Below are positions 1 to 12,684 of a stretch of DNA of 36,532 bases, piece after piece. How positions within the stretch are numbered: position 1 is the stretch's first letter; each line of letters starts with the position of its first letter. The DNA comes from Naasia sp. Its GTDB lineage: Bacteria; Actinomycetota; Actinomycetes; Actinomycetales; Microbacteriaceae. Position numbers and translations under genes: made by a program. The notes beneath the pieces are model-generated. The model made no database searches, was not told the DNA's origin, and saw nothing but the letters and a program-made list of their open reading frames with translations. The stretch covers positions 1 through 36,532 of the forward strand of contig NZ_JAODMK010000020.1 of NCBI RefSeq assembly GCF_025465545.1. The letters are read 5' to 3'.

Positions 1-399
1 GGGGCCAGTAGCGGTCGTGCCACCGTTTCCCGTCCCACCACCGCAGATCGTGGGGGTGCGCTGCCGCGCGGTACCAACCGGCTCGGCGCTTGGTCGTTGT
101 GCCGGTGCTCATGGCGGTGACACTAGCGATAGTGGGGACTCCCAGCCAGAGCCGTGCCAGTGGTTCGGCTCGATCGCGGACCCCGGCTCCTCCGGATCGT
201 CCATGGCCATGGTTCCGGTCTTCGCAGCAGTTGCCCTGGTGACCACCGTTCCGCTCGCCGCGGTGCTCCGGAACCTCGACCGCGCTTGGTAAGGCGGGGC
301 AGGTCGCGTCGCACTGTGGTTTCTCGCGGGACCTTCGGCACTGCATTTGATCGCGACGGGCGCGGACCATGTTGACGAACCCAGCGGACGGAGACTGAG
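1..399. other. Left-edge region without a recognised gene
   Basis: No reading frame here resembles a known protein on either strand. A short plus-strand frame ending at 292 finishes in a hydrophobic stretch (203-292) that could be a 29-residue membrane peptide, but it has no convincing ribosome binding site. The only clear element is the DosR-type palindrome at 328-342, which belongs to the universal stress gene that follows. Confidence 0.5.
328..342. promoter_or_regulatory. DosR-type box 1 (upstream of USP gene at 400)
   Basis: The sequence is GGGACCTTCGGCACT. It matches the core of the mycobacterial DosR/DevR consensus GGGACTWWAGTCCC in the GGGAC half, the W-W centre and the following G, with a degenerate right half. 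Its centre is about 65 nt before the ATG at 400, a usual distance for an activator site. The identical 15-mer occurs before the phosphoketolase gene at 12670-12684 on the other strand. Confidence 0.7.
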
Positions 400-1320
400 A
401 TGCACACCACCGAGACCCGAGCGAAGGTCGGCCCAGCCCGAGCGGAGCGTGCTGCTTCCGCGGATCCCGAGCACGTGCTGTTCGCCACCGATGGCGGCGA
501 TGCCGGAACAGGCGCTCTGGAGTGGCTGGCCCGTCGTGCGGAGCAGCGCCGACTCGATATCGACGTGCTCACCGTGGTCGAGCGGGACTGGACGACCATC
601 CAACTGCTCGAGGATGTGTTCCGCGACGCGGCAGAGGAGGTGCTGGATGCCGCCGAGGCCTACCTCGCACGGACCGCCCCCTCCGCCGAAGTCCGCACGG
701 CGATGTTCTTCGGCGACGCACGGGCCGAATTCGCGAACGCCTCAGCGAACGCCGATCTCCTGCTGGTCGGAAGCAACCGGACCGGAGCGCTCTCGGGCAT
801 GCTCGGAGCCAGCTTCTCCACCCGGCTCGTCGAGGCGGGGCAGTGCCCGGTGGTCGTCGTGCCGAAGACCTGGCGGCCTGGAACCGGCGCGGTGGTCGTC
901 GGCGTCCTCGGTGACGGGAGCGACGAAGCGGCGCTTCGGTTGGCCGTCGACGAGGCGACACTCCTCCACCGCGAGCTCCGGGTGATCCACGTGCGGGACT
1001 TCCCCGCCATGGTCCCGGACGCACTCGTGGAAGGTGCGGCCACCGCCGGTCTCGACGCCCAGGGTTCTCTGCTGTCGGAGGTCGTCGATCGGATCCGCAC
1101 CGCGAACCCCGAGCTGCTGGTGCGAGGAATCCTCGTCGAGGGACATCCCGCCGGCGCACTCCTCCGGGAGGCCGAGGGGGCCGAGCTCCTTGTCGTGGGC
1201 CGCCACGGCTGGAGGGTCATGGAGCGCTTCTTCATCGGCTCGATCAGCCGGGACATCATCGCCCGCCCGCCCTGCCCCGTTGCGGTGGTCCGGCCGGTCC
1301 CCGAGGATGCGCGGCAGTAG
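400..1320 (+). CDS. Two-domain universal stress protein (UspA family)
   Basis: This is a 306-residue protein with two tandem Usp domains (roughly residues 23-150 and 163-300), the arrangement common in actinobacteria. The second domain has a textbook nucleotide-binding motif, G-2x-G-9x-G-S (GRHGWRVMERFFIGS). In the first domain the equivalent stretch starts GSNRTG and ends AS, so the second and third motif glycines are lost. The start is supported by GGACGGAGA ending about 6 nt before the ATG. It is a close paralogue of the USP at 8663: both open with the FATDGG signature and share a WRPG-x-GxVVVGV linker. Usp proteins bind ATP in the cytoplasm and support survival under hypoxia and starvation; the exact role is unknown. 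DosR-type box 1 lies just upstream, so control by the DevR protein encoded here is expected. Confidence 0.9.
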   Translation: MHTTETRAKVGPARAERAASADPEHVLFATDGGDAGTGALEWLARRAEQRRLDIDVLTVVERDWTTIQLLEDVFRDAAEEVLDAAEAYLARTAPSAEVRTAMFFGDARAEFANASANADLLLVGSNRTGALSGMLGASFSTRLVEAGQCPVVVVPKTWRPGTGAVVVGVLGDGSDEAALRLAVDEATLLHRELRVIHVRDFPAMVPDALVEGAATAGLDAQGSLLSEVVDRIRTANPELLVRGILVEGHPAGALLREAEGAELLVVGRHGWRVMERFFIGSISRDIIARPPCPVAVVRPVPEDARQ

Positions 1321-1783
1321 CGCCCGAGGGCAGCCGGCTGCTCCTCGTCGCGCCTGAGCGGAAGGCGGCCCCCGTCCGCGCTTTCCCCTCCGTTCGATTG
1401 TGGAGAGCGCGTGTGCGTGCGAGCACTCCAGCCGAGCATGCGCACGGGTGGCGCCGGAGATCGGAGTGGATGCCCTTGTGTGGGCCCGCCCATGGCGGTG
1501 ATCTTCGCCGGCGCCACCGCACCGCAGGCCGGCTACGCCGAGTCGATCCAGGCGTATCCGGCGCGCTGGCCCCACGTTCGGCTCCCGGTGGGCGGTTTCC
1601 CGGGTGGTGCGCATCGTCCGCTCACCGTCAGGAGCCGGCGACCCGGAACCGGATGGCATCGCCACCGGCCGAGCCGCGCCGAGACCCGCCTCGCGGGACC
1701 AACGCCCCTAACGGCGCGAGGAGGTCTCCCGAAGGGTTGGGGCTCTGCTGCACCCGTGTGCAGCACGAGAGCGAGGCGGAACG
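1321..1783. other. 463-bp intergenic region before the ATPase gene
   Basis: No protein-coding sequence was recognised on either strand. The region holds a short GC-rich palindrome (GCAGCCGGCTGC near 1331) just after the USP stop, which might form a weak terminator, and DosR-type box 2 at 1695-1709. The rest looks like unstructured high-GC sequence or old gene remnants. Confidence 0.5.
1695..1709. promoter_or_regulatory. DosR-type box 2 (upstream of P-type ATPase)
   Basis: The sequence is GGGACCAACGCCCCT. It fits the five-site consensus GGGACCWWNGSCMCT of this window and matches the mycobacterial DosR core at 11 of 14 positions. Its centre is about 82 nt before the ATPase ATG. The preceding CTCGC is shared with box 1. 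Confidence 0.7.
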
Positions 1784-4549
1784 ATGAGCCAGATGGCCGC
1801 TCCTGGAGCACCGCGACTCGACGGGGGAGGCCCCGGGGAACCGTCCCCGCGGCCCCGGGAGACGCCGGGAAGCGCGCCGCTTCCCTCCCTGCTCCGCGAC
1901 CTCGGCACGAGCAAGGACGGGCTGGGGCGGCGGGAGGCGGAGCGACGCCTGTCCATCTACGGTCCGAACACTCTTCCCGCGGCAGCGACCCGGTCGGTCC
2001 TGGGGCTGCTGGCGGTCCAGCTCGTGCAGCCGTTCGCGCTGCTGCTCTGGCTCGCCGCCGCCATGGCCGTCCTGACGGAGACGCTCCTCCTCAGTCTCGC
2101 CGTCGTCGGAGTGATCCTCGTGAACGCGATCCTCACGGTCGTGCAGGAGCGCGGGGCGGCGAGGGCGGTCAGTGCGCTGGCGGCCTACCTGCCGGCCGTC
2201 GCCGAGGTGATCCGGGACGGCACCCTTCAGTCCGTTCCCGCCTCGCAGCTCGTTCCCGGCGACGTGCTGCTGATCACCGAGGGCGATCGGGTGTCCGCGG
2301 ACGCCCGGCTGGTATCCGGGGCCGTCCAGATGGACCTGTCGCCGCTGACCGGCGAGTCGGTGCCCGCGATGCGCTCCGCGGACGATGCCTCTCCCGTCGA
2401 GCGACTGGTCGACGAGCCGGACGTGGTGTTCTCAGGAACCGCATGCGTATCGGGGCAGGCGAGGGCGGTCGTCTTCGCGACCGGCGCGCACAGTGAGATC
2501 GGGCGGATCGCCGCCCTTGCCGGGCGGCAGAAGAAGAACGACGAGAGTCCCCTCGAGCGCCAGATCCGGCGCGTCACGTGGCTGATCGCCGCGGTCGCCG
2601 TGGGGATCGCCGCCGTCTTCCTGCCACTGGCGATGCTGGCAGGGCTCTCGCTGCCCGAGTCCGGGATCTTCGCGATCGGGCTCCTTGTCGCCAACGTCCC
2701 CGAGGGGCTGCTTCCGACGATCACCCTCGCTCTGGCGGTCGGCGTGAAGGTGCTCGGCAGGTCGGGTGCGCTCGTCACCCGGCTGTCCTCGGTGGAGACG
2801 CTGGGCTCCACGACGGTGATCTGCACCGACAAGACGGGGACGATCACCGCGAATCAGATGACGGCCACCGAGCTGTGGGCCGACGGCCGGTCGGTGCGGC
2901 TCTCTGCGGGAGCTCCGGTGCCCGCGGGCATGGCCGAGGTGATGGCGGACTGCAACCAGCTGGAACTGACGACCGATCCCATGGAGAAGGCCCTGATCGA
3001 GGCGGCGCGCCGCGCCGGGGCGGCTCCGCGACCGAGCGCCGCAGTGTTCGCGTTCGATGCGCTGCGGAAGCGGATGAGCGTCGTGGTGGCTGAGGGGCCG
3101 GCCTTCAGCTGCGAGATGAAGGGCGCACCGGAGCAGGTCCTGCCCCTCTGCCGCACCGTGCAGGCCGGTGGCGGCGCTCGCCGGCTGACGGAGGCGGACG
3201 CCGCCGCCATCGAGGGTGCCGTTGCGGAGCTCGGTGCCCGAGGGCTCCGTGTGCTCGGCCTCGCCCGACGCACCATGACAGCGGTGCCGGCCTCGGTCGA
3301 GGAGGCGGAGACGGATCTGACCTTCCTCGGCCTCGTCGCCCTCATCGACCCGCCCCGGCCGCAGGTCGCGGCAGCCGTTGAGGCGAGCCACTCCGCGGGC
3401 ATTCGCATCCACATGGTCACCGGGGACAACGGGGCGACCGCGCTCGAGATCGCGCGTCAGGTGGGGATCGTCCCGACGCGCCTCGTCTCGGGCGCGGAGT
3501 TGGACTCGATGAGTGAGCAGCAGCTCGATGCCGTCCTGTCCGCGCCGGGCGAGGTCGTGTTCGCACGAAGCACTCCCGACGGCAAGCTTCGGATCGCCGA
3601 GGCGCTGCGCGACCTGGGCCATGTCGTCGCGATGACCGGAGACGGCGTCAACGATGCGCCGGCGCTGCATGCCGCCGACATCGGGGTCGCGATGGGGCGC
3701 TCCGGAACCGATGTGGCGCGAGCGGCAGCGACGATGATCCTGGCGGACGACGACTTCTCGACCATCGTGACCGCGGTCAGGGAGGGCCGCCGCGTCTATG
3801 ACAACATCCGCAAGTTCGTGCTCTACACGTTCGTGCACCTCGTCCCGGAGGTCGTGCCCTTCGCGGTCTTCGCGCTGACCGGGGGCCTCGTCCCCGTCCC
3901 ACTGACCGCGTTCCAGATCCTCGCCATCGACCTCGGCACCGAGGTCCTTCCCGCCCTCGCGCTCGGCCGGGAGAGGGCGGAGCCCGACATCATGGCGAGA
4001 CCCCCACGGCAGCGGAACGAGCAGCTGATCACCGGGCGCCTCCTTGTGCGCGCCTGGCTCGTCATGGGGCTTGTCTCCGCGGTCCTCTCGATGGGGGCGT
4101 TCTTCCTGGTGCTGCTGAGCGCAGGCTGGACCCTCGGCGCCCCGACGGGGGAAGGGACCCCGCTTGCCGAGGCATACCGCCAGGCCACGACGACCACCTT
4201 CGCGGCCATCGTCGCGTGCCAGATCGGCTCCGCGATCGCGGCTCGCACCGAACGGGCATCGCTGCGCTCCATCGGCTTCTGGACGAACCGGCCGCTGATC
4301 GCCAGCGTGCTCGCGGCAGTGCTCTTCACCGCGGCTCTGTGCTACCTCCCTCCGCTGCAGCAGGCGTTCGGGACCGCTGCCCTGCCGGGCTGGGTCCTTC
4401 TCCTTCTGCTGTCCTTCCCGCCCATCGTGTGGGGGGCGGATGAGCTGTTCCGCGCCGCGGAGCGTCTCCACCTGCGGCGCACCCACGGCGAGCACCCGCG
4501 GGTGCTCGTGGCTCCGCAGTCCTCACCTGTCGTGCTCGGGTCCCGATAG
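1784..4549 (+). CDS. P2-type cation-transporting ATPase (CtpF/Na,K-ATPase-like)
   Basis: This 921-residue membrane pump couples ATP hydrolysis to cation export. It has the full P2 layout: N-terminal cation ATPase domain; actuator domain with TGES (189-192); phosphorylation motif DKTGT with the acceptor at D349; KGAPE nucleotide-binding motif; hinge GDGVNDAP (619-626); and a C-terminal block of membrane helices. Helix M4 reads VANVPEGLLPTITLALAVG with E307, and M5/M6 contain VHLVPEVVPFAVFA and AIDLGTEVLPALAL, resembling the Na,K-ATPase branch rather than the PEGLPA form of SERCA. The ion (Ca2+, Na+, K+ or H+) cannot be fixed from sequence. The start has GAGGCGGA about 5 nt upstream; a second ATG at 1793 is possible. 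CtpF, a P2 ATPase, belongs to the DosR regulon of Mycobacterium tuberculosis, and this gene likewise follows a DosR-type box. Confidence 0.9.
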   Translation: MSQMAAPGAPRLDGGGPGEPSPRPRETPGSAPLPSLLRDLGTSKDGLGRREAERRLSIYGPNTLPAAATRSVLGLLAVQLVQPFALLLWLAAAMAVLTETLLLSLAVVGVILVNAILTVVQERGAARAVSALAAYLPAVAEVIRDGTLQSVPASQLVPGDVLLITEGDRVSADARLVSGAVQMDLSPLTGESVPAMRSADDASPVERLVDEPDVVFSGTACVSGQARAVVFATGAHSEIGRIAALAGRQKKNDESPLERQIRRVTWLIAAVAVGIAAVFLPLAMLAGLSLPESGIFAIGLLVANVPEGLLPTITLALAVGVKVLGRSGALVTRLSSVETLGSTTVICTDKTGTITANQMTATELWADGRSVRLSAGAPVPAGMAEVMADCNQLELTTDPMEKALIEAARRAGAAPRPSAAVFAFDALRKRMSVVVAEGPAFSCEMKGAPEQVLPLCRTVQAGGGARRLTEADAAAIEGAVAELGARGLRVLGLARRTMTAVPASVEEAETDLTFLGLVALIDPPRPQVAAAVEASHSAGIRIHMVTGDNGATALEIARQVGIVPTRLVSGAELDSMSEQQLDAVLSAPGEVVFARSTPDGKLRIAEALRDLGHVVAMTGDGVNDAPALHAADIGVAMGRSGTDVARAAATMILADDDFSTIVTAVREGRRVYDNIRKFVLYTFVHLVPEVVPFAVFALTGGLVPVPLTAFQILAIDLGTEVLPALALGRERAEPDIMARPPRQRNEQLITGRLLVRAWLVMGLVSAVLSMGAFFLVLLSAGWTLGAPTGEGTPLAEAYRQATTTTFAAIVACQIGSAIAARTERASLRSIGFWTNRPLIASVLAAVLFTAALCYLPPLQQAFGTAALPGWVLLLLLSFPPIVWGADELFRAAERLHLRRTHGEHPRVLVAPQSSPVVLGSR

Positions 4550-4585
4550 GGCCTGCGCTTCCGGGTGTCGAACGCCGCCGCCCGA

Positions 4586-4600
4586 GGGACCTAAGCCCCT
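4586..4600. promoter_or_regulatory. DosR-type box 3 (upstream of DoxX gene)
   Basis: The sequence is GGGACCTAAGCCCCT. It matches the mycobacterial DosR core at 12 of 14 positions, the best of the five sites. Its centre is about 89 nt before the preferred DoxX start at 4682 and 44 nt after the ATPase stop, so the DoxX gene probably has its own promoter. Confidence 0.72.
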
Positions 4601-4681
4601 GTGAGCTCCGTTCCGCGCTGACCAGACTCGGCCTCAGGAACAGCATCCCGCGTCAGAGGAAGACCTACCAGGAAGATGGAC

Positions 4682-5275
4682 ATGACCGCTCACACTCTCG
4701 CCCCCAGCGCCTCAGCCACCCGCCGACTCGCGAACGCAGACAGGCAGGCGGAGGCGCGGACGGCACTCGTCTCGACTGCGCTCGGGCGCCGCAGCCTCGC
4801 CGTCCTCCGCTTCGCCACCGGCTTCATCTTCCTGTGGGCCTTCCTCGACAAGACGTTCGGTCTCGGCTTCTCGACCCCCCTCGAGCGCGCCTGGATCAAT
4901 GGGGGAGCGCCCGCTCAGGGCTTCCTCACGAGCCCGGCCGTCGTCGGTCCCCTCAAGGGCTTCTTCGCGGCGCTGGCCGTTCCCGCCACCGACGTCCTGT
5001 TCATGGCCGGAATGCTCGGGATCGGGCTCGCGGTTCTCCTGGGAGTCGGCTTGCGCGTGAGCGCGGCGGCCGGGACGGCCCTCATGGTCCTCATGTACCT
5101 GGCCGAGTGGCCCTTCACGCCGAACGCGGGCTCCACCAACCCGATCGTGGACTACCACCTCATCTACGCCCTGGCCCTGATCGTCCTCGCGGCCCTGTCC
5201 GCGGGGGACACCTGGGGCTTGGGGCGTCAGTGGAAGCGGATCCCCCTCCTCGGGCAGCGGCGCTGGCTTCTCTAG
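4682..5275 (+). CDS. DoxX-family integral membrane protein
   Basis: The protein has 197 residues with about four membrane segments: FATGFIFLWAFLDKTF, a helix around the GMLGIGLAVLLGVGL stretch, TALMVLMYLAEWPF and LIYALALIVLAAL. This is the layout of DoxX/DoxD proteins, membrane subunits linked to quinone or thiol redox chemistry in other organisms; the activity here is unknown. An in-frame ATG lies 6 nt earlier at 4676, but AGGAAG at 4670-4675 abuts that codon and sits at good spacing (6 nt) for the ATG at 4682, so the later start is preferred. It stands alone between the ATPase and the convergent devR gene, follows DosR-type box 3 and ends in a strong terminator. Confidence 0.82.
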   Translation: MTAHTLAPSASATRRLANADRQAEARTALVSTALGRRSLAVLRFATGFIFLWAFLDKTFGLGFSTPLERAWINGGAPAQGFLTSPAVVGPLKGFFAALAVPATDVLFMAGMLGIGLAVLLGVGLRVSAAAGTALMVLMYLAEWPFTPNAGSTNPIVDYHLIYALALIVLAALSAGDTWGLGRQWKRIPLLGQRRWLL

Positions 5276-5287
5276 CCGGGAAGAGAG

Positions 5288-5320
5288 GAAGGAGCCGTCG
5301 AGGCCCTCGACGGCTCCTTC
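5288..5320. terminator. Bidirectional hairpin terminator between DoxX and devR
   Basis: A perfect 14-bp stem (GAAGGAGCCGTCGA paired with its complement) encloses a 5-nt loop GGCCC. It sits between two convergent genes. There is no long T-run, as is common for actinobacterial terminators. Confidence 0.85.
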
Positions 5321-5338
5321 TTCACGCTGCGCGATCCG

Positions 5339-5971
5339 TCAGGGCTGCCGTGGATGCTTGGAGCCGTACACCGCCGCCTGGGTGCGGCGCTCCATGCCCA
5401 GTTTGTCGAGGAGCCCCGACACGTAGTTCTTCACCGTCTTCTCGGCGAGCTTGAGGCGCTCCCCGATCTGCCGGTTAGTCATCCCCTCGGTGATCAGGTC
5501 GAGGATCTGCCGCTCACGCAGGGTCAGCTCGATCTCGCTGCTCGACTCCTGCAGCCGCAGCAGGCGCTCCTCGGCCCGCCTGCGCAGGTCGGGGCGGATG
5601 AGCTGCTCTCCGGCGCAGACCCGCCGGATGGCGTCGACGAGGCCGGCGCCCCGGATGTCCTTGAGCAGCCAGCCCTGAGCGCCGGCGAGGAGCGCGGCTT
5701 CCTGTGCCTCCTCGTCGTCGAAGGCGGTGAGCATGAGGCAGGGCAGGTCGGGGCGGGTGGACCGGATGGTGCGGCACGCATCGATTCCTGTGCCATCCGG
5801 CAGCCGGACGTCCAGAACGACGACGTCCGGGGACGTCGCGTCGACCCGGGCGACCGCGGCGCGGACAGAGCCGGCTTCGCCGACGACTTCGAGGTCCGCC
5901 TCACGCTCGATCACGTCCGCGATGCCGCGACGCACCAGCTCGTGGTCATCGACAAGGAACACGCGGATCAC
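5339..5971 (-). CDS. devR: DevR/DosR-like response regulator (NarL/LuxR family)
   Basis: From the GTG at 5971 the protein has 210 residues. The receiver domain has acidic residues D8 and D9 and phospho-acceptor D54 in VVVLDVRLPDG, the same numbers as in M. tuberculosis DosR. The C-terminal LuxR-type helix-turn-helix reads LTLRERQILDLITEGMTNRQ followed by AEKTVKNYVS and DKLGMERRTQAAV. The contact residues K178, K181 and N182 match K179, K182 and N183 of DosR. An upstream ATG at 6010 would add 13 unconserved residues. The GTG is preferred because it makes a 4-nt GTGA overlap with the kinase stop, has GAGG 7 nt upstream and aligns exactly with DosR. It is cotranscribed with the kinase gene and probably binds the GGGACC palindromes in this window. 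Confidence 0.9.
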   Translation of the reverse strand: MIRVFLVDDHELVRRGIADVIEREADLEVVGEAGSVRAAVARVDATSPDVVVLDVRLPDGTGIDACRTIRSTRPDLPCLMLTAFDDEEAQEAALLAGAQGWLLKDIRGAGLVDAIRRVCAGEQLIRPDLRRRAEERLLRLQESSSEIELTLRERQILDLITEGMTNRQIGERLKLAEKTVKNYVSGLLDKLGMERRTQAAVYGSKHPRQP

Positions 5972-7674
5972 CCTCCCACCTCGTCCCGGCGGGGAGTCGG
6001 GATCTCCCATTCCAGGACCGCTCCGCCGCTCTCGGCAGTCCGCAGGCTGCTGCGCCCGCCCCAGCGTCGTGCGCGGTCCTCCAAATTGGCCGTGCCGCTC
6101 GCCCGCACTCGGCCCTGCACCCCGCGGCCGTCGTCAGCCACCCGAACGCCCACCAGGTCGGCGGCCGCGTGCACGGTCACGGTGACCGCTGTCGCGTCGG
6201 CGTGCCGGGCCGCGTTCGACAGGCCCTCCCGCACCACGGCCTCCAGATCCTCGAGAACATCGTCGGAAGCCAGGCCGTCCAGGTCTCCCTCGAAGACGAG
6301 CCGGGGTGCCGCGGTGAACATCGCCGCGGATTCACCGACCACGTTGAGGAGCCGATGCCGCGCTGAGCCGCCCCTCGGCTCCGCGGCGCGCAAGGCGAAG
6401 ACCGACTTGCGGATCTCGGCGATGGCCTCGTCGAGGAGCCCGGACACGAGCTCGATCTTGGGTTGCGCTCCCGACGGCACCCCCTGGACATCGATGCCGT
6501 TGAGCGACAGACCGGCGGCGAACAGCCGCTGGATCACGTTGTCGTGCAGGTCCCGGGCGATGCGGCTCCGGTCCTCGAGCAGGGCGACCCGCTCGCGCAC
6601 CTCGCGTGCTTCGCGCAGCTCCAGCGCCACGCTGGCGTGTGCGGCGAATTCGGTGACCATGTCGAGATCGGACTCGAGAAAGCGGGAAGCGCCGGCCGCG
6701 CGGATGAGCGCTAGGGCGCCCCGACGTCCGGCCGAGCGCTCCAATGGAACGAACATCGCCGGTCCGGTGAACACGCTGCTGTCCACTGACGCGGGGTGCT
6801 TCACGCCGAGTGAGAGCACAGGGTTGCCCGAAGCGATCACCTGACCGGCGACGCTGTCGGCGAAGGGGAACACCCGGCCCGCGAAGTCGTCGGCGGCCTC
6901 TCCCCACGCTCGCTCGGAGACGAGCGCGCCGGCCGGAGTCTGAGTGATCAGGATCACCGCGGACGCGTCCGTCAGGCCGATGATCGAGTCGGCGATGACT
7001 CGGAGCGGATCGGTGCCGTCATCGTTGAGCAGTGCCCCGCTCACATCGGCCGAGGCGAACGCCCACCGCTGTCGGCGCTCGGTCTCCCCGAACAGGCGCG
7101 CATTGTCGATCGCCACGCCGGCCGCGGCGGCGAGGGCCGTGAGGAGCTCTTCGTCTTCCGAGGAGAACGCCCCGTCCGAGCGGTTGGTCAGGTAGAGATT
7201 GCCGTAGACCTCGCCGCGCACCCGGATCGGTACCCCCACGAAGGAGCTCATCGGCGGGTGCAGCTCGGGGAAGCCCACCGATCGCGGGTCCTCCGACAGG
7301 TGCTCGAGCCTCACCGGGCTGGCATCCGTGATGACAGCGCCCAGGATGCCGTGTCCCCGCGGCAGGTGCCCGATCGCATCCGCCTGCTCCGGAGACAGCC
7401 CCACGTGGATGAACTGCTCGAGAGACCCATCGGGCGCGATCACCCCGAGGGCTCCGTATTGGGCACCCACCAGATCCACGGCGGCTCGGGTGATGCGCGT
7501 GAGCATGACCGAGAGGTCCAGGTCCTCCGCGATCGCCCGGGTGGCGGAGAGGAGGTTCCGCAGGCGGCCCTGGGTGGTGAGGACGTCCTTCGCCTTGTCG
7601 AGGAGGTCCCCGATCGCCCGTTCGAGCTCCGAGCGGGGCAGGTCGGGAAAGGCGATGGAGGACTCGCTGCTCAT
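5968..7674 (-). CDS. devS: DevS/DosS-like GAF-GAF sensor histidine kinase
   Basis: This is a 568-residue soluble kinase with GAF domain 1 (about 50-195), GAF domain 2 (about 215-355), a HisKA_3 dimerisation helix with phospho-acceptor H377 in RDLHDNVIQRLFAAGL, and a HATPase domain with N487 (EGLSNAARHA) and DDGRG (514-518). In DosS and DosT the heme of GAF-A is held by H149/H147 with a distal Y171/Y169. Here H139 (in ELHPPM) and Y161 (in GNLYLTN) occur in matching motifs with the same 22-residue spacing, so heme-based O2/NO/CO or redox sensing is inferred. The start has GGAAGG about 6 nt upstream. It overlaps devR by 4 nt. The gene is divergent from the USP at 7776, with DosR-type box 4 between them, implying autoregulation. 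Confidence 0.9.
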   Translation of the reverse strand: MSSESSIAFPDLPRSELERAIGDLLDKAKDVLTTQGRLRNLLSATRAIAEDLDLSVMLTRITRAAVDLVGAQYGALGVIAPDGSLEQFIHVGLSPEQADAIGHLPRGHGILGAVITDASPVRLEHLSEDPRSVGFPELHPPMSSFVGVPIRVRGEVYGNLYLTNRSDGAFSSEDEELLTALAAAAGVAIDNARLFGETERRQRWAFASADVSGALLNDDGTDPLRVIADSIIGLTDASAVILITQTPAGALVSERAWGEAADDFAGRVFPFADSVAGQVIASGNPVLSLGVKHPASVDSSVFTGPAMFVPLERSAGRRGALALIRAAGASRFLESDLDMVTEFAAHASVALELREAREVRERVALLEDRSRIARDLHDNVIQRLFAAGLSLNGIDVQGVPSGAQPKIELVSGLLDEAIAEIRKSVFALRAAEPRGGSARHRLLNVVGESAAMFTAAPRLVFEGDLDGLASDDVLEDLEAVVREGLSNAARHADATAVTVTVHAAADLVGVRVADDGRGVQGRVRASGTANLEDRARRWGGRSSLRTAESGGAVLEWEIPTPRRDEVGG

Positions 7675-7702
7675 CGAACGCCTTCCAGACCCGATCCAAG
7701 AG

Positions 7703-7717
7703 GGGACCTATGGCCCT
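7703..7717. promoter_or_regulatory. DosR-type box 4 (divergent devS / USP promoter)
   Basis: The sequence is GGGACCTATGGCCCT, matching the mycobacterial DosR core at 11 of 14 positions. It lies in the roughly 100-bp gap between devS (start 7674, minus) and the USP (start 7776, plus), 36 and 66 nt from the two starts. Being palindromic it could activate both directions. CCTATC around 7730-7735 is a possible -10 element for the plus-strand gene. Confidence 0.72.
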
Positions 7718-7775
7718 GATTGCCCCGAACCCTATCGGGCGACCATTGGAGCACGCCACTGCAGAGGAGCTCACC

Positions 7776-8645
7776 ATGACCATCCAGGCGGACCAGCATC
7801 GATACGAAGCCACCGCCCTCCCGGACGACCCGCTGGTGGGAGTGGGCGGCCAGATCCTCGTCGGCTTCGACGGGTCACCGGCAAGCGAGTCGGCACTGAC
7901 CTGGGCGGTCGCGCGCGCGACCACGAGAGGCGTCCGCAGGATCGTCCTCGTCGGCGTGGTCGACGACGACTCGGGCGCCATGGGACAGGACTATGCCGAT
8001 CTCGCCGCAGAGCAGGCGGCACGCTTGCTCTCGAGGACCGCGGACCGCGTCTCGGAGAAGCATCCTTCTCTGCTGGTCGACACTCGCCTCGCCCGCGGTT
8101 CGGTGGCAGTGGGGCTCGCGGGAGCCGGCTCCGACGAGGACCTCGTCGTGGTCGGCTCCGACAAGACCGGATACGCGCGTGGGCGGGTGTACGGGTCTCG
8201 GAGTCTCCAGCTGGCCGCAGTGGCTGGCGGGACCATCGCGGTGATTCCCGCCGTGGATCTCCGGCTTCGCGAGGGGGTGGTCGTGGCCCTGCAGGAGCCG
8301 GAGCGGGCCGGCGAACTGGCCCGCATGGGCGCACGGGAGGCCGTGCAGCGCCGCTCCTCACTCTCCCTCGTGCACGCCATCCCGCTCGAGAGCGGCCCGG
8401 AGCGGCACGCCTGCGCGGATCTCACCCTGGCCGCGGGGCGCGCGGCCGCATCACAGGAGTCTCCTCACCTCGAAGTGACCTCGTTCCTGGCGCACCGGCG
8501 TCCGGCAGAGGCGATCCTCAACCTTTCGAGGGACAAGGCGCTCCTGCTGGTCGGGCGCTCGCGTCGTCCCGAGCCGAACGTGCTCGGGGGGACCCTTCAC
8601 GAGGTCCTGATGAACGCGAACGTCCCCGTCGTGGTCGTCCGTTGA
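7776..8645 (+). CDS. Universal stress protein, two Usp domains
   Basis: The protein has 289 residues. The first domain starts at about residue 25 (ILVGFDGSPASESALTWAVARA, a typical Usp opening) and the second runs from about 160 to the end. The first nucleotide-loop equivalent is GSDKTGYARGRVYGS, with K where the second motif glycine is expected. The second is GRSRRPEPNVLGGT, also degenerate, so ATP binding may be weak or absent. An upstream in-frame ATG at 7710 lies within the DosR-type box; the ATG at 7776 has GAGGAG at 7-nt spacing and is chosen. This protein is only distantly related to the other two USPs of the window. It begins a likely operon with the USP at 8663 and the FMN-binding protein at 9579, divergent from devS. 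Confidence 0.87.
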   Translation: MTIQADQHRYEATALPDDPLVGVGGQILVGFDGSPASESALTWAVARATTRGVRRIVLVGVVDDDSGAMGQDYADLAAEQAARLLSRTADRVSEKHPSLLVDTRLARGSVAVGLAGAGSDEDLVVVGSDKTGYARGRVYGSRSLQLAAVAGGTIAVIPAVDLRLREGVVVALQEPERAGELARMGAREAVQRRSSLSLVHAIPLESGPERHACADLTLAAGRAAASQESPHLEVTSFLAHRRPAEAILNLSRDKALLLVGRSRRPEPNVLGGTLHEVLMNANVPVVVVR

Positions 8646-8662
8646 GAGAAGCAGAAGAAGCC

Positions 8663-9586
8663 ATGCACCTGATTCCCGATGCGACAGAGGCGCCCGCCAG
8701 CACCCCCGCCGAGGGCCGGTCGGAACCGACTGTCGAACGAGTAGCCTTCGCCACCGATGGGGGACCCGCCGGCAGTGGCGCCTTGGCGTGGATCGCGCGG
8801 CGCGCCACGAGGGGTGGGCTGCACATCGGCGTCGACCTGGTGCTCGAGCAGGACTGGGTGTCCGGCGGCCTTCACCTCGGCGACGCCGAGAAGGCGGCCG
8901 ACGCGGTGGTCGAGGCGGCCGTGACCTACCTTCGCCAGGAGGCGCCTGCCGCCGAGATCCATGGGAACGTGACCTGGGCCGACCCGCGTGAGAGGTTCGA
9001 ACAGCTCTCCGCAGCCGCGGATCTCCTCGTCGTCGGAACGAACAGGACCGGTCAGCTCGCGGGACCGCTCGGCGGAGGCTTCGCGATGAAGCTCGCCGAA
9101 GCCGCACGGTGCCCGGCGATCGTCGTTCCCCGCAGCTGGCGACCGGGCGAAGGCCCCGTGGTCGTGGGGGTCCAGGGCGACGCGAGCGACGAGGGGCCAC
9201 TCGGCTTCGCGGCTCGCGAAGCCCGTGCCTCCGGCAGGACGCTCCGCGTCGTCCACACCTGGCGGCTCCCCACTCTGCTTGCCAGCGAAGCCCTTCTGGT
9301 GCCGCCGGTCTCGGAGATCGCCCGGAGCCACGATCAGCTGCTCCGGAGCATCGTGGACCCGCTGCGGGCAGCGAACGCGGACCTGCGAATCGAGAGTCTC
9401 AGTCTCGAGGGGCCCGCGGCAGCGCTTCTGGCCGAGCAGGGTGCGGGGGCGGAGCTGCTCGTCGTCGGATCCCACCGGCTCGGCTTCCTCGACCGCTACT
9501 TCGTCGGGTCGACCAGCCGAACGGTCCTCTCGCGGCCGCCATGCCCGGTCGCGATCGTCGGCATGCCGGTCGAGTCCCATGAGTGA
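8663..9586 (+). CDS. Universal stress protein, paralogue of the gene at 400
   Basis: The 307-residue protein has two Usp domains. The first opens RVAFATDGGPAGSGALAWIA, and the join reads RSWRPGEGPVVVGVQGD, both paralogous to the USP at 400. The second-domain loop is GSHRLGFLDRYFVGS, which keeps the spacing of the G-2x-G-9x-G-S motif but has Arg for the second Gly. The first-domain loop is GTNRTGQLAGPLGGG. The start at 8663 is 18 nt after the preceding USP stop and has only a weak purine-rich binding site (AGAAGAAG). The stop overlaps the next gene by 8 nt. It is expected to be cotranscribed from the promoter carrying box 4. Confidence 0.87.
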   Translation: MHLIPDATEAPASTPAEGRSEPTVERVAFATDGGPAGSGALAWIARRATRGGLHIGVDLVLEQDWVSGGLHLGDAEKAADAVVEAAVTYLRQEAPAAEIHGNVTWADPRERFEQLSAAADLLVVGTNRTGQLAGPLGGGFAMKLAEAARCPAIVVPRSWRPGEGPVVVGVQGDASDEGPLGFAAREARASGRTLRVVHTWRLPTLLASEALLVPPVSEIARSHDQLLRSIVDPLRAANADLRIESLSLEGPAAALLAEQGAGAELLVVGSHRLGFLDRYFVGSTSRTVLSRPPCPVAIVGMPVESHE

Positions 9587-10046
9587 CGCCGCCTTCCCGT
9601 CCGCTGCCGGGGCTCCTGTGACGTCGCAGCTGTCCGAGACGGAGTGCTGGTCGATGCTCGGGCGAGCGGCAGTCGGACGCCTCGCCGTCAGCGTGGCGGG
9701 GGTGCCGGACATCTTCCCGGTGAGCTTTCTCGTCGACCGGGGAACGCTCCTGTTCCGGACGTCACCGGGCACGAAGCTGCTCGAGCTGACCATCAACAAG
9801 TACGTCGCCGTCGAGATCGACGGGATCGATGGCGACGAGGCGTGGAGCGTCGTCCTGCGCGGCATCGCCTCCCGGCTGGAGCGGAAGGCTGAGCTGGCTC
9901 ACGCAGACTCCTTGGCCCTCTCGTCCTGGCAGCCCATGTCGGACTTCGTCTACGTCTGCGTGGCGCCGATGACCGTGACCGGGCGCCGACTGCGGCGCGA
10001 GCCGCGGCCTGCTCTCCCGCGTGACGGCGGCCGGCTCCCGGTCTGA
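9579..10046 (+). CDS. Pyridoxamine 5'-phosphate oxidase-like FMN-binding protein
   Basis: This is a 155-residue protein of the split-barrel flavin-binding fold (PNPOx-like). Residues 18-120 carry the pattern: LSETECWSMLGRAAVGRLAV, then DIFPVSFLVDRGTLLFRTSPG, then a KYVAVEIDGID strand. Homologues include mycobacterial proteins of the DosR regulon (Rv3129 type), some of which bind FMN or F420; the substrate here is unknown. The ATG overlaps the USP stop by 8 nt (ATGAGTGA), so it is the last gene of the USP operon and probably translationally coupled. It is followed by a hairpin terminator. Confidence 0.82.
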   Translation: MSDAAFPSAAGAPVTSQLSETECWSMLGRAAVGRLAVSVAGVPDIFPVSFLVDRGTLLFRTSPGTKLLELTINKYVAVEIDGIDGDEAWSVVLRGIASRLERKAELAHADSLALSSWQPMSDFVYVCVAPMTVTGRRLRREPRPALPRDGGRLPV

Positions 10047-10063
10047 CGCTCGCTGATGGACGA

Positions 10064-10099
10064 GAGCCGGCCTCGGGGGAGTCCTCCCGCGGCCGGCTC
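10064..10099. terminator. Bidirectional hairpin terminator
   Basis: GAGCCGGCC (10064-10072) pairs with GGCCGGCTC (10091-10099), and the loop can pair further through GGGAG/CTCCC. It separates two convergent genes, the FMN-binding protein and the phosphoketolase. Confidence 0.75.
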
Positions 10100-10121
10100 G
10101 TGTGCGACAGCTTCTGAGCCG

Positions 10122-12635
10122 CTACTCGTTGTCTCCGCCGGTCGTCGCTCCCATGGACACCGCGCCCACGCCGGCGTTCGCCTCCGGCACGTCGCCCCGA
10201 ACCGCAGCCGTCCACGTCCACTCGGTGACAGCGGGGATGTCCTCGCCGTTCTCGCGGGTGTACTGGCGTGCCAGCAGGCGGGCATCCTGCATGCGCTGGC
10301 GAAGCGGCCCGCTCGTTCCGGCCAGCCCGGGCACGTGGTCGAGGACATCCATCACCAGGTGGTAGCGGTCCATGTCGTTGAGCATCACCATGTCGAACGG
10401 CGTCGTCGTGGTGCCCTCCTCCTTGTAGCCGCGCACGTGGATCAGGGCGTTGTCGGGGCGGCGGTAGGTGAGGCGGTGGATCAGCCACGGGTACCCGTGG
10501 TAGGCGAAGACCACCGGCGTGCCGGCGGGGAACAGCGACTCCCAGGCCGATTCGCCGAGTCCGTGCGGGTGCTCGCCCTCCGACTGGAGGCGCATGAGGT
10601 CGACCACGTTGACCACCCGGATCTTCAGGTCGGGCACCTCGGCGCGGAGGATCGAGACTGCGGCGAGGGTCTCCAGGGTGGGCACGTCGCCGGCGCAGGC
10701 CAGGACGACGTCCGGCCGCCGGCCCGCGACCTCGGTCCCTGCCCATTCGAAGATCCCGATGCCGCGCGTCATGTGCAGGATCGCCTCGTCCATGGTCAGC
10801 CAGCTGAACGTCGGCTGCTTTCCGGCCACCACCACGTTCACGTAGTCGACCGAGCGCAGGCAGTGGTCGTAGGTCGACAGCAGGGTATTCGCGTCGAACG
10901 GCAGGTAGACCCGCACGACATCGGCCTTCTTGTTGACGACGTGATCGATGAACCCGGGGTCCTGATGGGACAGGCCGTTGTGGTCCTGCCGCCAGACATG
11001 GGAGGACAGCAGATAGTTGAGCGAGGCGACGGGACGCCGCCAGGGGATCCCCTTCGAGACCTTGAGCCACTTGGCGTGCTGGTTCAGCATCGAGTCCACG
11101 ATGTGGATGAAGGCCTCGTAGCTGTTGAAGAGCCCGTGCCGGCCGGTGAGCAGGTAACCCTCGAGCCAGCCCTGGCACTGATGCTCGCTCAGCATCTCCA
11201 TGACCCTGCCCGCGCGGGCGAGGTGCTCGTCGGAGGCGAGGATCTCGGCGTTCCACTGCTTGTCGGTCACCTCGAGCACGGCGCCGAGCCGGTTCGATGC
11301 CGTCTCGTCGGGGCCGAAGATGCGGAAGTTGTGCGGATTGCGCCGGATCACGTCGGCGAGCCACTCGCCCAGCACTCGGGTCGGCTCGTGGACTGCTCCG
11401 CCAGGGGTCGGAACCTCCACGGCATAGTCGCGGAAGTCGGGGAGGTCGAGGTCCTGCTTGACCAGTCCGCCGTTGGCGATGGGATTGGCGCTCATGCGGC
11501 GCTCGCCCACCGGCGCGAGCGCGGTCGCGAGGACCACGGCGGCGCCGCGGTCGTCGAACAGCTCCTCCGGCCGGTAGGAGTGCAGCCAGTCCTCGAGGAT
11601 CCTCAGGTGCTCGTCGGTGTCACGCGCGTTCGCGAGGGGCACCTGGTGCGCGCGCCAGTTGTTCTCCGCCGGGTGGCCGTCGATCTCCTTCGGGCACGTC
11701 CACCCCTTCGGCGTCCGGAGGATGATCATCGGCCAGGCCGGCCGACCCTCCAGAGTGCCGGCCGCCGCCGAGGCCTTGATCTCTGCGATCTGGTCGAGCA
11801 CCCGGTCCATGGTCTCCGCCATGCGACGGTGCACCGCGGCCGGATCCTCGCCGTCGAAGCCGCCGGCGACGATGTACGGGGTGTGGCCGTAGCCGCGCAT
11901 CAGGCTGAGGAGCTCGCTCTCCGGGATGCGTGCCAGAACGGTCGGGTTCGCGATCTTGTATCCGTTGAGATGCAGGATCGGCAGCACGACGCCGTCGTGC
12001 AGAGGGTCCAGGAACTTGTTGGAGTGCCAGCTGGTGGCAAGCGGACCGGTCTCCGCCTCTCCGTCCCCGACCACGGCCGCGACGAGGAGGTCCGGGTTGT
12101 CGAAGGCGGCACCGTAGGCATGGGACAGCGAGTACCCCAGTTCGCCGCCTTCGTGGATCGATCCCGGAGTCTCTGGCGAGACGTGGCTCGGGATCCCTCC
12201 CGGAAAGGAGAACTGGCGGAAGAGGCTGCGCACCCCGTCCTCGTTCTTCCCGATGTGCGGATAGACCTCGCTGTAGGTGCCGTCGAGGTAGGCGTTGGCG
12301 ACCATGCCCGGTCCGCCGTGCCCGGGCCCGATCACGTAGATGGTGTTCAGATTCCGCTGGCGGATGACGCGGTTGAGGTGGGCGTAGAGGAAGTTCAGGC
12401 CAGGTGTGGTGCCCCAATGCCCGAGCAGTCGCGGCTTGACGTCCTCGCGCACCAGGGGCCGCCTGAGCAGCGGGTTGTCCATCAGATAGATCTGGCCGAC
12501 GGAGAGGTAGTTGGCCGTGCGCCACCACGCGTCCAGTTGAGCGAGCTCGCTGCTGCTGAGCCGCCGGGATGCGTCCGCGGCGGGGCCGGGTTCGGGAACG
12601 GAGGTTCGGGGGAGCGACGACGGCGCGATGGTCAT
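10122..12635 (-). CDS. xfp: Xylulose-5-phosphate/fructose-6-phosphate phosphoketolase
   Basis: The enzyme has 837 residues. It is thiamine-diphosphate dependent and cleaves xylulose 5-phosphate (and often fructose 6-phosphate) with inorganic phosphate to acetyl phosphate plus a sugar phosphate. Diagnostic stretches include [37 protein letters not shown], the ThDP/Mg site GDGEAETGP, and [18 protein letters not shown]. Length fits the family. An ATG at 12689 would place the DosR-type box inside the gene and add 18 unconserved residues. The ATG at 12635 is preferred, with GAGG about 9 nt upstream. Acetyl phosphate can yield ATP through acetate kinase, a route useful when respiration stops. No acetate kinase or phosphotransacetylase lies in this window. 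Confidence 0.92.
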
Positions 12636-12669
12636 CCCGTCAGCCTCGCCTCGCTTCTCCGGCCGCGCG

Positions 12670-12684
12670 AGTGCCGAAGGTCCC
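12670..12684. promoter_or_regulatory. DosR-type box 5 (upstream of phosphoketolase)
   Basis: Read on the minus strand this is GGGACCTTCGGCACT, identical over 15 bp to box 1. The centre is only about 42 nt before the ATG at 12635, so if it works at the usual -40 region the transcript would have little or no leader. Confidence 0.68.

Follow-up and report, generated by a model that had tools for sequence, protein, structure and literature searches.

A DevS–DevR-type system with an adjoining predicted regulon in Naasia sp., and a phosphoketolase gene among its candidate targets

Five copies of a DosR-like palindrome surround a devR–devS gene pair in Naasia sp. (Microbacteriaceae), which raises the question of whether they are operator sites of the adjacent regulator and whether they make up the whole of its regulon. 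The stretch of DNA analysed (the window; 36,532 nucleotides of contig NZ_JAODMK010000020.1) holds GGGACCWWNGSCMCT at all five positions given in the original prediction, four on the forward strand and one on the reverse (Table 1). By chance 0.01 copies would be expected in the window, and five copies were reached in none of 100 shuffles. Across the 2.76 Mb genome, exact matches were confined to the same five sites, and the reversed control gave none. This exclusiveness is partly circular because the pattern was written from those sites: it admits neither A at position 1 or 11 nor G at position 6, and allowing a single mismatch or loosening the pattern brings in the four sites on contigs C27 and C46 listed in Table 1, plus others. 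The statement that there is no other copy therefore stands for the exact pattern but not as a claim of exclusiveness, and the uniqueness of the five sites, in part a product of how the pattern was drawn, was rejected.

The predicted resemblance to the M. tuberculosis DosR core GGGACTWWAGTCCC, 11–12 of 14 positions in boxes 2–4, was confirmed (boxes 1–5 agree at 10, 11, 12, 11 and 10 positions), and C stands at box position 6 in all five. Boxes of the type GGGNC-N5-GNCCC are thus present upstream of the targets, with GNCAC in boxes 1 and 5, where A replaces one C. Since the window takes up its entire contig (C4) and base 1 is thus a contig end, the cluster may extend to the left.

Table 1 Boxes, −10-like elements and genes of the cluster, with further sites in the genome. 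DevR boxes 1–5 are matches to GGGACCWWNGSCMCT; offsets are counted from the box start.
Feature	Position	Strand	Remarks
DevR box 1	328..342	+	upstream of USP gene 400-1320
DevR box 2	1695..1709	+	upstream of P2-type ATPase
DevR box 3	4586..4600	+	upstream of DoxX-like gene
DevR box 4	7703..7717	+	between divergent devS and USP-USP-PPOX unit
DevR box 5	12670..12684	-	upstream of phosphoketolase
−10-like element GACCAT	365..370	+	box 1; A/T at offsets 38/42
−10-like element AAGGGT	1732..1737	+	box 2; A38/T42
−10-like element CAGACT	4623..4628	+	box 3; A38/T42
−10-like element GACCAT	7741..7746	+	box 4; one-base shift, offsets 39/43
−10-like element GAGGCT	12642..12647	-	box 5; A38/T42
universal stress protein (USP), two USP stretches	400..1320	+	Pfam PF00582
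P2-type cation ATPase	1784..4549	+	Pfam; top NCBIfam model, a PMR1-type Ca ATPase, does not reach its cut-off
DoxX-like protein	4676..5275	+	weak Pfam DoxX match only, E 0.77, sub-threshold
devR, response regulator	5339..6010	-	Pfam; best solved relative M. tuberculosis DevR 3c3w, E 1.9e-61
devS, GAF-GAF-HisKA_3 kinase	5968..7674	-	Pfam; first GAF nearest 2vzw and DevS structures
universal stress protein	7776..8645	+	Pfam
universal stress protein	8663..9586	+	Pfam
pyridoxamine 5'-phosphate oxidase-like protein (Pyridox_ox_2)	9579..10046	+	Pfam PF12900
phosphoketolase (XFP), full-length, all three domains	10122..12635	-	Pfam
box and −10	C27:58539		upstream of USP gene
box and −10	C27:59899		upstream of unassigned, apparently broken frame
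box and −10	C46:6266		upstream of USP gene
box and −10	C46:6817		predicted +1 meets ATG of P-type ATPase at 6866, hand count

Pfam searches upheld the gene assignments made beforehand for the first USP, the P2-type ATPase, DevR, the kinase, the two further USPs, Pyridox_ox_2 and XFP; the DoxX assignment reached only a sub-threshold match, and this protein has a relative at 63% identity in locus L114. DevR is a NarL-type regulator, and its orthology to M. tuberculosis DevR rests on the 3c3w match together with an identical recognition-helix stretch, LAEKTVKNYVS. This identity fits the predicted retention of the DNA-contact residues. The first GAF domain of DevS has DosT/DevS structures as its top matches (2vzw being DosT) and retains His of HPPM and Tyr of LYLT, presumably the heme-ligating and the distal residue. 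The devS gene lies upstream of devR and overlaps it by 43 bases (window 5339–7674).

To look beyond this genome, a 15-column matrix trained on the five window sites only was applied to 80 named loci encoding a DevR relative (the best 80 of 564; 1.48 Mb). At 16 bits or more, 86 matches were found in these 80 loci; column-permuted matrices (n = 40) gave 5.8 on average and 19 at most, and the reversed matrix gave 2; at 18 bits or more, there were 32 matches versus 0.55 for permuted matrices. At least one 16-bit match was present in 46 of the best 80 of 564 loci, and none in the other 34, perhaps because streptomycetes and their kin use another core. Position 6 was C in 73 of the 86 sites, T in 9 and G in 4. 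Training on C-bearing sites biases this count towards C, so the column was blanked; C then stood at 76/101 sites at 14.5 bits and at 22/35 at 18 bits. C at position 6, put forward as a distinguishing mark, is thus also the usual letter at other DevR loci, and was rejected as a trait of the window; three published Streptomyces rows have GGGACCTTCGGCCC, although the Streptomyces consensus has G at this position.

The flanks of these sites have a fixed layout. The offset of a −10-like element was learned from the box flanks of other genomes and only then read in the window. A38/T42 was found in 39 of the 86 flanks and A39/T43 in 19, amounting to 56 distinct flanks (best 80 of 564 DevR loci); over the range of offsets 16–74, all others stayed at or below 6 of 86, and the opposite orientation gave 4 and 6 of 86, so that the layout is one-way. 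In the window, the same reduced −10 (A at −11, T at −7) lies 22–23 bp past all five boxes, in one register for four of them. By this −10 placement the box centre would lie near −42, and a proximal box over −35 at a fixed distance from the −10 can be predicted for 5/5 boxes in the window and 56/86 elsewhere. The −10 signal rises with box score, unevenly: it was found at 18/22 boxes of at least 19 bits, 30/42 of 17–19, 8/22 of 16–17 and 11/22 of 14–16 bits, then, in descending order of score, at 17/61, 15/80, 27/260 and, at 5–8 bits, 84/1058, with a permuted-matrix background of 71/1467. The 22-bp spacers that separate box from −10 are never more than 75% identical to one another. The usual form of a −10 element is TANNNT. 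The −12 place in the L011–L090 flanks is not T-rich (T in 14/86, G in 41/86), and the −10 of DevR-type promoters is, as predicted from these flanks, one that keeps just A-11 and T-7.

In 13 of the 56 promoters the predicted +1 coincides with an ATG or GTG that begins an open frame, and in 5 such a codon lies one base further on; in the window, the predicted +1 of the XFP gene is the A of its ATG (12635) by hand count. These start codons, that of XFP among them, suggest leaderless mRNAs, and the counts are to be read with the bias to short leaders of a start rule that takes the first candidate. Box 4 has no A/T at 38/39 in the direction of devS, so autoregulation of devR, a central trait of the mycobacterial system, is not evident.

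Together, the matrix matches in other DevR loci and the fixed −10 make it very probable that the five boxes mark promoters activated by DevR, each box taking the −35 position, as in M. tuberculosis. It is highly unlikely that they are repressor or architectural sites instead. Although box position alone is silent on the sign of regulation, and genes change both ways in the published osdR mutant (PMC5069765), a predicted box centre near −42, a −10 kept at A-11/T-7 only and a one-way layout are what would be expected of an activator that replaces the −35 element. Moreover, the proximal box lies over −35 at M. tuberculosis DevR promoters (PMC3029386), and four USP genes near osdRK are down in the osdR mutant (PMC5069765).

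A matrix of twelve OsdR sites taken from PMC5069765 found the same −10 at 36/93 sites of at least 13 bits in the same 80 loci (best 80 of 564), and two permuted OsdR matrices found it at 4/171 and 3/130 sites of at least 11 bits. The OsdR-type and window-type site sets overlap. Since the −10 also stands at OsdR-type sites, the promoter layout seems to be common to both although the core letters drift; in 33 of the best 80 of 564 loci, neither type of box was found with a −10. The layout would provide a transferable rule for DevR promoters: a box, 22–23 bp, A-N3-T and often a start codon at the predicted +1.

The five boxes had been proposed to define a compact regulon, with nearly every boxed unit within 13 kb. 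An open pattern (GGACBWWNGNCMCT) matched the genome 11 times versus 6 for the reversed control, and so is not very specific, and 9 of the 11 matches have a −10: the five window boxes and four outside the window, on C27 and C46. Five of nine box-plus-(−10) sites thus lie in the 13 kb, which does not bear out a complete compact regulon, and with the others on C27 and C46 the regulon would comprise at least three loci. This tally takes in open-pattern matches; the 152 two-mismatch matches were left out. The closer end of C27 is ~35 kb away from the sites on it, and USP genes are candidate targets on C27 and C46 as well as in the window. Five further candidates (C42, C50, C9:104499, C4:25901 and C27:58987) were set aside, being without the −10 signal. 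As a separate observation, a membrane-protein-like frame downstream of a DevR box in L006 (C27; ~7086–7870, minus strand) appears broken, a short frame at the predicted promoter being out of register with a longer one.

A DevR orthologue is present in 3/8 same-genus relatives (G001–G008), at 79–80% identity, and this patchiness suggests that the cluster has repeatedly been lost or transferred. All three DevR-bearing genomes have boxes near devRS, 9/12 of them with a −10; the −10 signal is absent from the devS–USP box in L111 and L113, and in L111 no box reaches 10 bits in the 1.5 kb that precede XFP. Across the family, with our own genome excluded, the median number of pattern matches was 7 in genomes with a DevR relative (n = 7) versus 1 in those without (n = 12; p 0.002), for a with/without split drawn after E-values were seen and a test that leaves out nine other-family genomes (of 25) as well as five small genomes of the family (G013, G018, G020, G021 and G023). 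Within the genus only, 3 versus 5 genomes gave p 0.036, again excluding our own. Summed matches versus the reversed control were 64 to 40 with DevR and 21 to 74 without. In four of the seven family genomes counted as having DevR, the relative is only 52–61% identical, and three of the seven (G007, G009 and G015) have only 2–4 pattern matches.

In one family relative, G017, all 11 open-pattern matches genome-wide lie within 22.4 kb at devR, 9/11 of them with a −10. As in the window, tblastn relatives of the PPOX, USP, P-type ATPase and XFP genes lie around devRS; unlike in the genome of the window, all boxes are at devR. Tight clustering is therefore not peculiar to this window. The G017 cluster (L121/L122) is the densest DevR cluster seen, and eight of its boxes form four opposed pairs 18–70 bp apart. 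With tblastn, its devR, devS and XFP each come out split over two overlapping pieces that differ in frame, possibly through assembly indels.

These counts also bear on whether the boxes serve another NarL-family response regulator of the same genome. The DevR query has 20 matches in the genome, DevR included, so other NarL-type regulators exist; even so, we consider their ownership of the boxes very improbable, given that the next best match among those listed is 42% identical, that family genomes with NarL-type regulators and no DevR relative have few sites, and that window-type sites lie by devR in 46/80 loci of other genomes (best 80 of 564). That the boxes are chance palindromes in GC-rich DNA, picked by eye afterwards, has practically no probability left: although the pattern was written from the sites by the author of the original prediction and the two-mismatch search gave 152 matches versus 439 for its reversed control, the expectation in the window is 0.01, and this explanation is already contradicted by a matrix that works independently on other genomes and by a −10 signal at 5/5 window boxes versus 71/1467 in the background.

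We thus read the locus, with high confidence, as a DevS–DevR system of the DosS–DosR/OsdK–OsdR type with its core regulon adjoining. The boxes, their conservation beyond the genome, their fixed spacing and direction, the genes downstream and the extra sites on two contigs were all computed. For the mechanism, we infer ligand, phosphorylation, binding and activation from the sequences. DevS, a GAF kinase that keeps the heme-holding residues of its M. tuberculosis relatives, would sense low O2 (or NO/CO) and phosphorylate DevR. Phosphorylated DevR would bind the GGGACCWWNGSCMCT boxes, which would stand in for a −35 element, and recruit RNA polymerase to the reduced −10 (A-11, T-7) 22–23 bp downstream, so that the USPs, the cation ATPase, the DoxX-like and PPOX-like proteins and the phosphoketolase would be switched on.

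The freshest lead among these candidate targets is DevR control of the only phosphoketolase, a maker of acetyl phosphate. A single XFP was found in the genome, and acetate kinase is likewise single-copy. Relatives of XFP occur in 10 of the 80 DevR loci (best 80 of 564), and five of the ten have a box ≤300 bp upstream, 3/5 with a −10. In L011 and L022 a box with a −10 lies 840 and 1072 bp upstream of XFP, the sole candidate in L028 is a 10-bit site, and the sequences of L067 and L089 end at the gene start. Curtobacterium luteum JCM 1480 also carries a −10-bearing box ahead of XFP (L012:14650). All seven family genomes that have a DevR relative contain XFP, in just three of them (G004, G005 and G017) no more than 16 kb from devR, and so do 6/12 without one. 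It was therefore rejected as a DevR-only gene, and would be recruited, rather than tied, to DevR.

Acetyl phosphate activates both DosR (PMC12919924) and OsdR (PMC5069765) in vitro, so feedback from XFP to DevR, wholly inferred here, is possible. In a further study, acetyl phosphate is weighed as an in vivo donor and phosphorylation is dispensable when DevR is overexpressed (PMC4973870), which speaks against the need for such a donor. Whether DevR directly switches on the sole phosphoketolase, and acetyl phosphate then keeps DevR phosphorylated as a metabolic latch in actinobacteria outside Mycobacterium, is a doubtful proposal with a small chance of being right. If it were true, phosphoketolase flux following the DevS trigger would give ATP via acetate kinase and also hold DevR phosphorylated. 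Placing phosphoketolase under a dormancy regulator would give a testable link between low-oxygen signalling and acetyl-phosphate metabolism.

In M. tuberculosis, the DosR regulon is spread over the genome. Its boxes are tandem and cooperative, whereas the window has five single boxes; its core, as quoted in the original prediction, has T at position 6, whereas the window has C. The autoregulated Rv3134c–devRS operon, in which Rv3134c is presumably a USP, has the regulator before devS, whereas devS precedes devR in the window. The systems are alike in having a DevR orthologue, a kinase of heme-GAF type, a proximal box, predicted in the window, over −35 and USP targets (PMC3029386, PMC4973870 and PMC12919924). 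The DosR regulon of M. tuberculosis is given as ~50 genes (PMC5069765).

No description of a DevR regulon in Microbacteriaceae, or of a phosphoketolase within a DevR regulon, was found in the open-licence literature, covered mostly at title and abstract level. The idea of an undescribed kind of regulon, gathered around its own regulator, has a precedent in OsdR/OsdK of Streptomyces coelicolor, for which Urem et al. 2016 (PMC5069765) predicted eight sites that between them account for 20 of the 22 genes near osdRK. That pair is likewise of DevR/DevS type with the same box register, its sites lie around the pair, and USPs and a PPOX gene are among its predicted targets. Three table rows share the GGGACCTTCGGCCC core, some sites have the same GGGACC half, the consensus is GGGCCGATCGGCCCT, and a site with the core GGGACCTTCGGCCCT lies in an EMSA-bound region (all PMC5069765). 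By contrast, the regulator comes first in OsdR–OsdK and devS first in the window, and the OsdR targets include nitrate reductase and pyruvate phosphate dikinase where the window instead has phosphoketolase and a P2 ATPase; the word phosphoketolase is absent from the main text of PMC5069765. Beyond the Streptomyces system, the present locus brings additional candidate sites on other contigs, a constant promoter arrangement and phosphoketolase as a predicted target, and extends an experimentally known DevR/OsdR system to the Microbacteriaceae.
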